A stretch of DNA of 64,000 nt, from contig WGMP01000009.1 of the NCBI GenBank assembly GCA_016124975.1, positions 1 to 64,000 of the forward strand. Direction: 5' to 3'. A model generated the notes under the pieces. It did not search any database. It was not told the DNA's origin and saw only the letters and a list, made by a program, of their open reading frames with translations. The position numbers and the translations under genes are program-made. The first letter of the stretch is position 1; every line of letters begins with the position of its first letter. Shown in pieces: positions 1-58,047 of the stretch. This stretch comes from Phycisphaera sp. GTDB lineage: Bacteria > Planctomycetota > Phycisphaerae > Phycisphaerales > SM1A02.

Positions 1-445
1 AAGTCCAAGGAACGGATGACGCCAGCCGTCGACTCCGACGCGTGTCGTTCCGGGGACTTCGTCCCCGGGCACCCGTGGTTGGCGACTCCGACGGTCTGAA
101 TCGTCCGACACGACCCGCACGGGTGCCCTTGGACGAAGTCCAAGGAACGGAGGGTGTCAGCCGTCGACTCCGACGCGTGTCGTTCCGGGGACTTCGTCCC
201 CGGGCACCCGTGGTTGGCGACGCCGACGATCCGAATCGCGCGACACGACACTCACGGGTGCCCTTGGACAAAGTCCAAGGAACGGATGATGTCAGCCGTC
301 GACTCCGACGGTTGGCGTTCCGCATGCTGAAGCATGCGGGCACCCCTGACCTGGGACTCCGGCGGGTGTCATCCACGCCAGAGGAAGCCGCCGCAGCGGC
401 GACCGCTCAAACCACCGCTGCCCTTGGACGAAGTCCAAGGAACGG
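1..445. repeat. Dispersed hairpin repeat family, block A
   Basis: This gene-free stretch holds at least six copies of a palindromic unit in both orientations. In one orientation a CGTTCC flank is followed by a 6-7 bp stem with a 3-4 nt loop and then GGGCACCC (46-74, 181-209, 316-345). The reverse-complement form GGGTGCCC-stem-GGAACGG is at 121-150, 256-285 and about 419-445, with a half copy cut by the window edge at 1-15. Stems differ between copies (GGGGAC/GTCCCC, TTGGAC/GTCCAA, GCATGC/GCATGC) but always pair. Spacers carry recurring CGACTCCGACG words. A reading frame crosses the block but has only repeat-derived sequence, so I do not call a gene. The same family is at 57628-58047. Confidence 0.85.
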
Positions 446-1706: not shown

Positions 1707-4301
1707 ATGTCCCTGTCCGACCGCACGCCAGCGCCGCACGCGAGCACGATCCGTCGCCAGATGAACGGCGCGCGCGGGCTCGGGTCGATGCGCGCGATGT
1801 CGCTCGCGGCGGTCATCGCGATTGCGAGCGCTGCGCTTGCACCGAGCGCGCTCGCGCAGTCGAGCGCCATCGAGGACGAGACCCTCGCCGACAGGCCGAT
1901 CGCGCGCGTGGTCTTCACGGGCCTCTCCCGCGTCACCGAGCGCGAGGTCCTCAACAACACCCGCGTCGCCGCGGGTCAGCCCTTCGAGGCCGCCGCGGTG
2001 CGCAGCGATGTGGCGACGCTCTACCGCCTCGGCCAGTTCGACACGGTCGACGCCCTCGTGCGCCTCCTCCCTGACGGCACGGTCGAACTCACCTACGCGC
2101 TTGTCGAGCAGCCGATCGTGCGCGACCTCCAGGTGGTCGGCAACAAGATCGTCTCCGACCAGGAGCTTCGCAAGGCGATCCCGCTCTATGCAGGCGGCCC
2201 GCGCGACGACTTCCTGCTCGAGCAGGCCGTGTCGCGCATCAAGGACCTCTACCGCAAGCGCGGCAACTATCTCGCCGAGGTCACTGTCGACGAGACGCGC
2301 CTCAAGGACACGGGCATCCTCATCCTGCGCGTGGTCGAGGGGCCACGGGTCAAGGTGAAGGAGATTGAGTTCGTCGGCAACGAGTCGTTCACGGCGTCTG
2401 AGCTCGCGGGCGAGGTGCAAACGCGCACCGCGGTGCCGCTTTTCGTCAAGGGCGAGCTCGACGAGGATCTTCTCATCGACGATGTGGCCGCGCTCGACAA
2501 GTTCTACAAGGACCGCGGCTTCATCGATGTCCGCGCGGACCGCCGCATCGAGATCTCGCCCGACTCGAAGGAGGCCAAGGTCGTCTTCGTGGTCAGCGAG
2601 GGCAGGCGCTACCGCATGCGCTCGATCACCGTCGAGGGCCGCGGCGCGGAGGGCCCGCGCCCGCTCGGGGTGCTCGACGCGAGGCAGATCCGCGATCTCC
2701 TCGCCATCCAGCCGGGCGACATCTACTCGCGCCTCAAGCTCGACAAGTCGATCGCGAGCGTGCGCGACAGCTACCACCTCCTCGGGCATGTCGATGTCGA
2801 GATCACCGACCGCGCCGTGCGCGTGGGCGAGGAGCCCGAGGTCGATCTCGTCCTGACCGTGCGCGAAGGGCGACGGACGATCGCGGGCCTCGTGAACATC
2901 CAGGGGAACTTCCTCACGAAGGACAAGGTCGTGCGAAGGCTCGTGCGCATTCAGCCGGGCCGCACGCTCGACGGCCGCGAGCTCGAGAACGCCCGCAAGC
3001 GGATCGAGGCGAGCCAGCTCTTCAACGATGTCCGCGTGACGGTGCAGCGCCCCCGCGACGACGAGCAGGACGCCCTCGAGCTGACGGACCCCTTCGGAAC
3101 GGGCGCGAGCGGCGCGGCCCCCGACGCCGAATCCGCCGCGCAGGCGGGCGGCCCCGACGATCCCGCGGTCGCGGCCGAACGCGCCGACCGAATCCGCTCC
3201 GATGTCCGCGACATCCTCGTCGAGGTCAAGGAGCGGAACACGGGCAGCGTGAACTTCGGCGTCGGCCTCGGCACGGACTCGGGCGTTTTCGGCGAGTTCA
3301 GCGTCAGCCAGCGCAACTTCGACCTCGCCGACACCCCCGAGACGCTCGACGAACTGATCTCGGGCCGCGCCTTCCGCGGCGCCGGCCAGCAGTTCCGCGC
3401 CTCGATCGCGCCGGGCAACGAGGTCACGAACTTCTCGCTCGACTTCGTGGAGCCGCACCTCCTCGAGACCGACTACTCGCTGAGGCTCTCCCCCTTCTAC
3501 AGGATCCGCCTCTACGAAGACTACGACGAGAACCGCGCGAGCCTGCCCATCTCGCTCTCGCGCCGCCTCGGCGACTTCTGGAGCGTGAGCCTCAACACGG
3601 CCTTCACCTCGGTGGAACTCGACGACTTCGATCCCGACACGCCGATCGAGGTCTTCGAGGACCGCGGGCCGACCACGCTCGCATCGCTCGGCTTCAGCGT
3701 GCGCCGCACCGATGTGGACCGGCAGTTCCGCCCAAGCCGCGGCTCGTCGGCCGAGTTCTCCGCGACGCAGTTCGTCAGCTTCGACGATGTCGACCCCTTC
3801 ACGGTCCTGCGCGCGGGCTACACGCAGTTCTTCACCGTCACCGAGGACTTCCTCGGCCGCCGCTCGACCCTGCGGCTCTCGAGCGACGTGGGCTACATCG
3901 TGGGCGACGAGGCTCCCGTCTACGAGCGCTTCTACCTCGGCGGCCGCAGTTTCCGCGGCTTCGACTTCCGCACCATCAGCCCGAAGTCGCGGGCGAACAT
4001 CGACTCGACGACCCCGCTCTCGAACGACCCGGTCGGCGGCACCTGGCTCTTCTCGCTCGGCCTCCAGTACGAGCAGCCCATCTTCCAGAACTCCTTCACG
4101 ATGGTCGGCTTCGTCGACTCGGGAACGGTCACCGACGAGATCGGGCTCGACCAGTACCGCGTCTCCGCGGGCCTCGGCATCCGCCTCTATCTGCCGCAGT
4201 TCGGCCCAGCACCGCTCGCGTTCGACTTCGCCTTCCCGATCGTGAAGGAAGACACCGACGAGACGCAGGTGTTCAGCTTCTCGGCGGAGATCCCCTTCTG
4301 A
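1707..4301 (+). CDS. bamA: Outer-membrane protein assembly factor BamA
   Basis: BamA folds and inserts beta-barrel proteins into the outer membrane. The 864-residue protein has a signal sequence ending SALAQ near residue 51, preceded by an unusually long N-region. A series of POTRA domains follows (about 60-430; repeated GNxxFxxxEL and V.EG.R signatures), then a linker rich in Ala/Asp/Glu and a C-terminal 16-strand-type barrel. The loop-6 motif RGF appears as SFRGFDF near residue 749, and the protein ends in a beta-signal with terminal Phe (SAEIPF). ATGs at 1761 and 1788 would give a more usual signal peptide. It heads an outer-membrane cluster followed by skp-like, lpxD, lpxC-fabZ and lpxA genes, an order common in Gram-negative bacteria. 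Confidence 0.93.
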   Translation: MSLSDRTPAPHASTIRRQMNGARGLGSMRAMSLAAVIAIASAALAPSALAQSSAIEDETLADRPIARVVFTGLSRVTEREVLNNTRVAAGQPFEAAAVRSDVATLYRLGQFDTVDALVRLLPDGTVELTYALVEQPIVRDLQVVGNKIVSDQELRKAIPLYAGGPRDDFLLEQAVSRIKDLYRKRGNYLAEVTVDETRLKDTGILILRVVEGPRVKVKEIEFVGNESFTASELAGEVQTRTAVPLFVKGELDEDLLIDDVAALDKFYKDRGFIDVRADRRIEISPDSKEAKVVFVVSEGRRYRMRSITVEGRGAEGPRPLGVLDARQIRDLLAIQPGDIYSRLKLDKSIASVRDSYHLLGHVDVEITDRAVRVGEEPEVDLVLTVREGRRTIAGLVNIQGNFLTKDKVVRRLVRIQPGRTLDGRELENARKRIEASQLFNDVRVTVQRPRDDEQDALELTDPFGTGASGAAPDAESAAQAGGPDDPAVAAERADRIRSDVRDILVEVKERNTGSVNFGVGLGTDSGVFGEFSVSQRNFDLADTPETLDELISGRAFRGAGQQFRASIAPGNEVTNFSLDFVEPHLLETDYSLRLSPFYRIRLYEDYDENRASLPISLSRRLGDFWSVSLNTAFTSVELDDFDPDTPIEVFEDRGPTTLASLGFSVRRTDVDRQFRPSRGSSAEFSATQFVSFDDVDPFTVLRAGYTQFFTVTEDFLGRRSTLRLSSDVGYIVGDEAPVYERFYLGGRSFRGFDFRTISPKSRANIDSTTPLSNDPVGGTWLFSLGLQYEQPIFQNSFTMVGFVDSGTVTDEIGLDQYRVSAGLGIRLYLPQFGPAPLAFDFAFPIVKEDTDETQVFSFSAEIPF

Positions 4302-16815: not shown

Positions 16816-16888
<73 letters not shown>

Positions 16889-57521: not shown

Positions 57522-57627
57522 GCGGCGAGGCTTGAGCGACGAGGTTTGAGCGACGAGGTTTGAGCGGTCGCCGCTGCGGCGGCTCCCTCTGGTGGTGGAG
57601 GAGTTTGCCTTCGACTCTGACGATTTG

Positions 57628-58047
57628 CGTTCCGCAGGTTGAAACCTGCGGGCACCCCTGGTGAATGACTCTGACGGTTTGAATCGCGCGATACAAAATC
57701 AGGGGTGTCGACTCCGACGATCCGAACCGTTCGATACGAAGATCAGGGGTGAACGACTCCGACGATCCGAATCGTGCGACACGAAAGTCAGGGGTGCCCG
57801 CATGCTTCAGCATGCGGAACGGATGATGTCAGCCCTCGACTCCGACGATTTGCGTTCCGCAGGTTGAAACCTGCGGGCACCCCTGGTGAATGAGCCTGAC
57901 GGTTTGAATCGCGCGATACGAAATCAGGGGTGTCGACTCCGACGATCCGAATCGTGCGATACGAAAGTCAGGGGTGAACGACTCCGACGATCCGAATCGT
58001 GCGACACGAAAGTCAGGGGTGCCCGCATGCTTCAGCATGCGGAACGG
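57628..58047. repeat. Dispersed hairpin repeat family, block B
   Basis: Four further copies of the block A family: CGTTCC-GCAGGTTGAAACCTGC-GGGCACCC at 57628-57657 and 57853-57882, and the inverse form GGGTGCCC-GCATGCTTCAGCATGC-GGAACGG at 57792-57822 and 58017-58047. They lie in two tandem units of about 225 bp, each with two or three 45-bp subunits containing CGACTCCGACGATCCGAA and AGTCAGGGGTG. The surrounding stretch 57522-58115 has no gene. It is not a CRISPR array because the spacers are themselves repeats. Confidence 0.88.

Follow-up and report, generated by a model that had tools for sequence, protein, structure and literature searches.

GTGC-tagged hairpins in a Phycisphaera sp. genome: REP-type elements very probably spread by a RAYT transposase

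The hairpin repeats in a 64,000-nt stretch of Phycisphaera sp. DNA (hereafter the window) are best explained as REP-type elements arranged in BIME arrays, very probably spread by a RAYT (TnpA-REP), an HUH enzyme that acts on single-stranded DNA. The first-pass annotation, made from the letters alone, had seen in these repeats a signature of selection on structure, in RNA or cruciform DNA, or of an element whose copying enzyme recognizes its fold, and had known of no named family with this layout. Such a family exists, since REP/BIME elements have the same layout and their varying yet complementary stems were noted in 2010 in the text of PMC2817692. REPs are small DNA hairpins present in hundreds of copies in bacterial genomes, and a domesticated single-strand transposase is proposed as the agent of their spread. 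Among the three alternatives, the element copied by a fold-reading enzyme is the best supported, as an array of these hairpins lies beside a RAYT gene. The tag of the hairpins is GTGC and not the canonical GT(A/G)G, and hairpins were found on one side only of that gene (P0001), so that the family is not a canonical REP system; it likely works like one. The departure from described REPs is the GTGC tag, changed at the fourth base, on which the place of cutting depends according to published work. An unexplained repeat thereby becomes part of a candidate enzyme-substrate pair, which accounts for stems that change between flanks that do not.

The window opens at base 1 of its contig (C21), and for this reason its first hairpin is only half present. 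Together with this half, there are ten complete hairpins in two blocks, with alternating orientation and four stem types (Table 1), in agreement with the earlier count of about eleven copies in both orientations. Nine are exact matches to CGTTCC-N{12,24}-GGGCACCC, compared with 0.01 expected from shuffles, and the tenth, which ends in GGGCAGCG, was recovered with a shorter frame; two other shorter-frame matches, at 3392 and 53101, were dismissed as chance. The stems and loops are those first listed, with the exception of one TTT loop. Block 1 is built from a tandem 135-nt unit, the second copy being 91% identical, and block 2 from a tandem 225-nt unit (96% identical). The last hairpin of block 1 lies 18 nt past the stop codon of a minus-strand gene (463-1608), which we take from its sequence to be aminomethyltransferase-like and call gcvT. 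Block 2 lies between two convergent genes, presumably for an ABC-transporter ATPase-like and a PAP2 phosphatase-like protein. At Rfam gathering scores, no family was found in the window except a tRNA at 16816-16888. Five matches in positions 1-500 at a lax threshold (four microRNA families and one sRNA) scored far under the gathering scores and were set aside as chance.

Table 1. Hairpins and associated sequences in the window; stems and loops are written as on the strand of the CGTTCC frame.
Feature	Position	Strand	Basis or remark
Half hairpin, TTGGAC-type stem	1..15	-	Sequence; cut by contig start
Hairpin, stem GGGGAC/GTCCCC, loop TTC	46..74	+	Frame match; minus-strand tag GTGC at 69-72
Hairpin, stem TTGGAC/GTCCAA, loop TTC	121..149	-	Frame match
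31-nt linker, GGAACG end to CGTTCC end, junction motif GACTCCGACG	150..180		Also 285-315, 57822-57852
Hairpin, stem GGGGAC/GTCCCC, loop TTC	181..209	+	Frame match
Hairpin, stem TTGGAC/GTCCAA, loop TTT	256..284	-	Frame match
Hairpin, stem GCATGC/GCATGC, loop TGAA	316..345	+	Frame match
Second palindromic repeat GAGCGGTCGCCGCTGCGGCGGC, inside block 1 array	387..408	-	Sequence match
Hairpin, stem TTGGAC/GTCCAA, decayed 3' flank GGGCAGCG	416..444	-	Shorter-frame match
Second palindromic repeat GAGCGGTCGCCGCTGCGGCGGC, beside block 2	57562..57583	+	Sequence match
Hairpin, stem GCAGGT/ACCTGC, loop TGAA	57628..57657	+	Frame match
Hairpin, stem GCATGC/GCATGC, loop TGAA	57792..57821	-	Frame match
Hairpin, stem GCAGGT/ACCTGC, loop TGAA	57853..57882	+	Frame match
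Hairpin, stem GCATGC/GCATGC, loop TGAA	58017..58046	-	Frame match

Across the 3.61-Mb assembly, the loose frame GTTCC-N{12,24}-GGGCA gave 368 matches compared with 163 for a backwards control. In a search of 81 genomes this pattern did not discriminate beyond the own genome, and a covariance model built from 15 hairpins was used instead. The model, a check already proposed in the first-pass annotation, gave at least 150 matches in the own genome. From 298 candidates in stretches fetched around hairpin hits, 238 hairpins in 65 clusters were kept by a rule of at least six of eight pairs and closeness to known stems; beyond the window, the genome carries at least 200. Clusters pile up at contig ends (38 within 300 nt, compared with 0.6 expected), and therefore the true number is probably higher. 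The arrays break assemblies. Of the 118 contig ends in this genome, 38 have an array within 300 nt, which makes contig order and copy number uncertain. Within the set of 238, seven main stem types share a single tag. Named on the strand used in the first-pass annotation (hereafter the annotated strand), they are GCATGC (78), GCGGAC/GTCCAC (56), GGGGAC (18), GCAGAC (16), GCAGGT (15), TTGGAC (14, and five more with loop TTT) and GTGGAC (11). The flanks are nearly constant, with GCAC in 227 and CGTT in 231 hairpins.

The hairpins alternate in orientation at regular spacing, as in BIMEs, and are dispersed at high copy number, as are REPs. Tail-to-tail linkers measure exactly 31 nt in 84 of 85 cases, and tag-to-tag linkers 48 nt in 46 of 80, the rest ranging from 47 to 187 nt; 13 of the 65 clusters consist of two hairpins, mostly 31 nt apart. 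By crude gene calls for 63 clusters, 20 lie between genes, 32 at contig ends, and 11 overlap a predicted frame, which in six cases encodes 94-128 amino acids and is perhaps spurious. With at most two mismatches, the motif GACTCCGACG occurs in every linker of both kinds (85 tail-to-tail, 80 tag-to-tag) and close to 75 of 105 outer array ends, against a background of 3.6 per kb; it may be a cleavage site, a recombination seam or plain element sequence. Attempts to read a cleavage site from the outer array ends (44 of 45 tail-side ends classified) were abandoned, as the break points do not coincide and range from position 16 to 31 of the linker on one arm and from 5 to 31 on the second arm.

A second palindromic repeat, GAGCGGTCGCCGCTGCGGCGGC, accompanies both blocks of the window. 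Genome-wide, it has 152 matches with at most two mismatches, compared with one for the backwards control. It often abuts hairpin arrays and also occurs alone or in short tandem runs, and a similar sequence stands behind gcvT in some relatives.

Selection on the structure of the stem, as first claimed, is supported by two analyses. A search for the flanks only (CGTT and GCAC correctly spaced, the stem being left free), covering 325 kb of this genome in stretches picked around hairpin hits, found at least seven of eight Watson-Crick pairs in 219 of 261 matches and in 0 of 33 matches to reversed flanks. A covariation test with five measures, two of them less clear, was carried out on 57 distinct hairpins taken from the own genome and from related ones. 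Changes on both sides of a pair occurred in 78 cells compared with 19.3 in shuffles, the covariation score was 0.501 compared with 0.170, and 95.8% of cells were paired, a value that fell to 24.6-43.2% when the partner was slid. The two weaker measures, pairs with a both-side change (seven of eight) and number of pair types, were matched by 52 and 56 of 500 shuffles, respectively. The alignment (A3; 150 of 155 matches, from 40 chosen sources) was fitted to the covariance model and leans towards it.

These data also bear on the view that plain tandem duplication of one old hairpin, followed by drift, produced the family, with a pairing that is inherited and not selected. Both blocks are indeed tandem duplicates and few stem types make up most copies. 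However, the excess of both-side changes, the well-paired flank-only matches and the 65 dispersed clusters count against this view, as does the foot pair, where C-G has been replaced by A-T with compensation in the same-genus genome G006 and likewise in the GCAGAC type of the own genome. The covariation contradicts the view, unless every stem type was imported ready-made, and we regard this explanation as scarcely credible.

The hairpins differ between their two strands. On the annotated strand the loop is TGAA in 180 of 238 hairpins and the reverse, TTCA, in none. Perfect stems account for 161 of the 238, a proportion conditioned by the selection rule of at least six of eight pairs, so that the statement that pairing is always kept holds for ten of ten complete stems in the window and not throughout the genome. 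The same C.A mismatch at pair 4 occurs in 66 hairpins and is a T.G wobble on the opposite strand; many of these stems share descent and are therefore not independent. Counted over all pairs, 67 mismatches (16 distinct sequences) would form a wobble pair on the tag strand, compared with four on the annotated strand. Because loop and wobble are strand-asymmetric, the element is read here on the opposite strand, and the active strand is probably not the one first written. In this orientation the element consists of GTGC, a foot CC or CA, the stem, a loop TTCA or GAA, the stem, GG or TG, and AACG. DNA fold predictions returned the hairpin on either strand for two copies with perfect stems. For one hairpin of the wobble type, the predictions favoured other pairings on both strands, which counts against a very stable fold of that type.

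This asymmetry has consequences for the two remaining alternatives. Were the hairpins kept mainly as RNA, in the role of 3'-end stabilisers, terminators or processing signals, selection would act on transcripts, yet orientation alternates within each array, so that transcripts hold both strands, while tag, loop and wobble stay fixed to the element. The sequences outside the stem are constant and the stem is variable, no T run follows the hairpins, and the only Rfam family above threshold in the window is the tRNA. Gaps between convergent genes are favoured (13 of 20 classifiable clusters, compared with 20 of 111 other gaps, by crude gene calls), and block 1 ends close behind a stop codon, which would suit a function in RNA. 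However, a location at gene ends is equally expected where insertions elsewhere do harm. RNA as the main target of selection is therefore disfavoured and appears improbable. Still less likely, in our view, is that the sequence is preserved because it extrudes as a cruciform or offers a double-stranded site to a host protein such as gyrase or IHF. Binding of REP/BIME sequences by gyrase, IHF and DNA polymerase I is reported in the text of PMC6006769, but a cruciform is strand-symmetric and the element is not, and seven main stem types argue against a protein that binds a double-stranded stem by its sequence.

The own genome encodes two Y1 enzymes found with PF01797 and a third found by protein search. 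P0001 (contig C15) matches the REP-associated tyrosine transposase model NF047646 with 89.9 bits (cut-off 80) and stays below the cut-off of the IS200 model (26.2 of 55). At E ≤ 1, its sequence matches a single PDB entry, 4ER8 (E 0.0041), which is the E. coli TnpA-REP on a REP hairpin and the nearest solved structure. The predicted fold (pLDDT 89.5) likewise matches 4ER8 best (E 5.5e-7), with a Z of 15.0 and an rmsd of 2.4 for 135 aligned positions, the next entry reaching 11.8. His58, His60, Tyr125 and Asn129 are invariant across 21 homologues and form the HUH motif and the catalytic Tyr followed by Asn that characterize RAYTs. Also in keeping with RAYTs, P0001 is single copy, without an insertion sequence of its own, and the next homologue in the genome is 41% identical; a related-locus search with P0001 gave three relatives at 27-32% identity. 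An array of three hairpins lies upstream, 124 nt from the start codon. Based on 65 clusters in 3.6 Mb, we estimate that such adjacency would arise by chance with about 1% probability per gene and 3% for any of the three genes. On the downstream side no hairpin was found within 1.3 kb, so that P0001 is not flanked by two inverted REPs as in a REPtron.

The second RAYT (contig C14, 13279-14163; locus L093) does have this arrangement, with its own GTGC-CACCAC...GTGGTG hairpins on both sides. This type has six copies in the genome with at most two mismatches, four of which are beside the gene, and the C14 REPtron offers a low-copy contrast to the hairpin family of the window. The third Y1 gene, P0002 (contig C30, 70189-70608; locus L031), is flanked by longer GGTGCC...GGCACC inverted repeats. 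Genes like P0002, under the NF047646 cut-off, are found in several same-genus genomes, some with similar repeats.

From the position and features of P0001, we infer that this RAYT is the putative cutter and spreader of the window-family hairpins and that GTGC is its putative guide; any use by the host would be equally conjectural. Its target would be a single strand in the folded hairpin, 5'-GTGC-C(C/A)-stem-loop-stem-(G/T)G-AACG, in which it would recognize the tetranucleotide at the foot, the loop and the paired stem, the sequence of the stem mattering little. Stems could then change by drift or exchange provided that pairing is kept, with tag, foot and loop fixed, and arrays of inverted pairs would grow by tandem duplication of a composite unit. 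For a Marinomonas TnpA-REP, the text of PMC8266576 reports that three of the four loop positions (TTNA), together with parts of the tag, were selected in SELEX, and that exchanging the stem for its complement made a moderate difference, whereas a mismatch did harm. A decisive role for tag and loop and a minor one for stem sequence would explain the constant flanks and variable paired stems described here, and the loop TTCA agrees with TTNA, which counts for the RAYT reading.

REPs are defined in the texts of PMC3686654 and PMC2817692 by GT(A/G)G and a palindrome of variable composition; in the family described here such a palindrome stands right behind the GTGC tag. Alternative complementary stem residues were noted again in 2013 in the text of PMC3733652, which also mentions tagged repeats in Planctomycetes and tags that vary in their second and third bases. 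A GTGC tag is absent from the text of PMC8266576, PMC3733652 and PMC3116915, and no word begins with GTGC in the text of PMC6006769; in the text of PMC2817692 and PMC3686654, these letters occur only inside the hairpin, in a stem or a loop that follows a GTAG or GTGG tag. Thus the GTGC tag is undescribed in these open-access REP papers, figures and supplements aside.

A tentative reading, which we hold to be rather doubtful, is that GTGC is a naturally re-coded guide and that RAYTs of this lineage use GTGC beside GTGG. Under the guide rule, as given in the published text, the two letters of the cut dinucleotide are read by tag base 4 and by base 3 or 2, in this order, and by extrapolation GTGC would move the cut from CT, CA or CC to GC or GA. 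The array ends showed no cleavage site. For the Marinomonas enzyme, changing the tag is described in PMC8266576 as shifting the cut dinucleotide, GTAG to GTAC yielding GA and GT. The stricter enzymes of S. maltophilia, for which the same text reports that changes at tag base 4 abolish cleavage, and of E. coli, described as tolerating no tag change, weigh slightly against a re-coded guide and also count against the RAYT reading. If true, RAYTs with GTGG-tagged and with GTGC-tagged hairpins within one order would constitute a natural experiment in retargeting a single-strand transposase, and a single enzyme would serve at least seven interchangeable stems.

P0001 homologues were examined at 29 loci in related genomes, and at 10 of them a hairpin carries GTG(C/G) directly before a C-starting stem, five with GTGC and five with GTGG, compared with two of 30 other loci in this genome set and 2-3 of 29 for shifted tags; the shuffles behind this comparison were of single bases only. 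No GTAG-tagged hairpin was found at the 29 loci. Many of the 19 homologue loci without a GTG(C/G) hairpin belong to distant homologues. Stems are unrelated among most tagged loci, CATCAC being common to three same-genus loci. The residue after a conserved Trp was rejected as a determinant of the tag, as it does not sort with it (W-E at L034-L036 and W-Q at L052, all GTGG; W-Q or W-L at GTGC loci). At one RAYT homologue (L046, genome G079), at least 15 GTGC-CACGGACCTG hairpins lie on both sides, in a direct 55-nt tandem and not alternating.

The covariance-model search beyond the source genome, also proposed in the first-pass annotation, found the family at E 0.05 in seven of 15 same-genus genomes, with none in the other eight among the matches listed. 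Counts were at least 45 (G008), 42 (G006), 41 (G003), 33 (G012), 10 (G004), and one each in G010 and G014. Among the matches listed for 65 more distant genomes, five genomes had one marginal match each. When 14 of the same-genus genomes were searched a second time at E 0.001, six retained the family, G012 with at least six hairpins. The family is therefore practically restricted to one genus. All 15 same-genus genomes have gcvT (84-96% identity), with no covariance-model match at this locus, which is fully informative in nine; four lack the downstream side or have less than 70 nt of it, and in two it is partly N. In G002, a GTGG-CATCACC...GGTGATG hairpin of the type beside its own RAYT stands behind gcvT, and G003, alone among 13 relatives, has a hairpin near the PAP2 gene. 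This pattern fits the view that hairpins of the RAYT type were gained at the same sites between genes. Three genomes with family hairpins (G003, G008 and G012) are without a close P0001 homologue, and the G006 homologue, 44% identical, adjoins differently tagged hairpins, which counts against the RAYT reading, although completeness is only 82-83% for three of the four assemblies. The gene may have been lost or lie in a gap, or another enzyme may serve these hairpins.

Several known systems resemble the family in part. The Class 3 TnpA-Y1 of Planctomycetes, in the text of PMC6006769, is likewise a Y1 HUH enzyme next to multi-copy hairpins, but has a CnGA foot and Y----Q, whereas P0001 has Y---N (Tyr125, Asn129) and GTGC. 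The CGTC-tagged palindromes of PMC3733652 are also short, tagged and of high copy number; in contrast, the text reports no transposase gene nearby, and the window family starts with CGTT on the annotated strand. P0002 shares the long flanking inverted repeats of the TIRYT described in the same text, whereas the window family consists of short tagged hairpins without long terminal repeats. Inverted pairs with outward tags, as in the REPINs of the text of PMC3116915, stand alone in some clusters here, but most clusters are longer arrays with two kinds of linker. The nearest relatives are REPtrons, in particular the short perfect-palindrome REPs of group 3 / subclass 2.5 in Pseudomonas, Stenotrophomonas and Marinomonas. 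Unlike these, the family has GTGC in place of GTAG or GTGG, hairpins on one side of the gene, at least seven main stems under one tag, and a transposase remote in sequence (4ER8 alone in the PDB). It shares with them more than 100 dispersed copies, an 8-bp stem with a short loop and a tetranucleotide at the 5' foot, inverted pairs alternating in tandem arrays, an array beside a single-copy RAYT and complementary variation of the stems.
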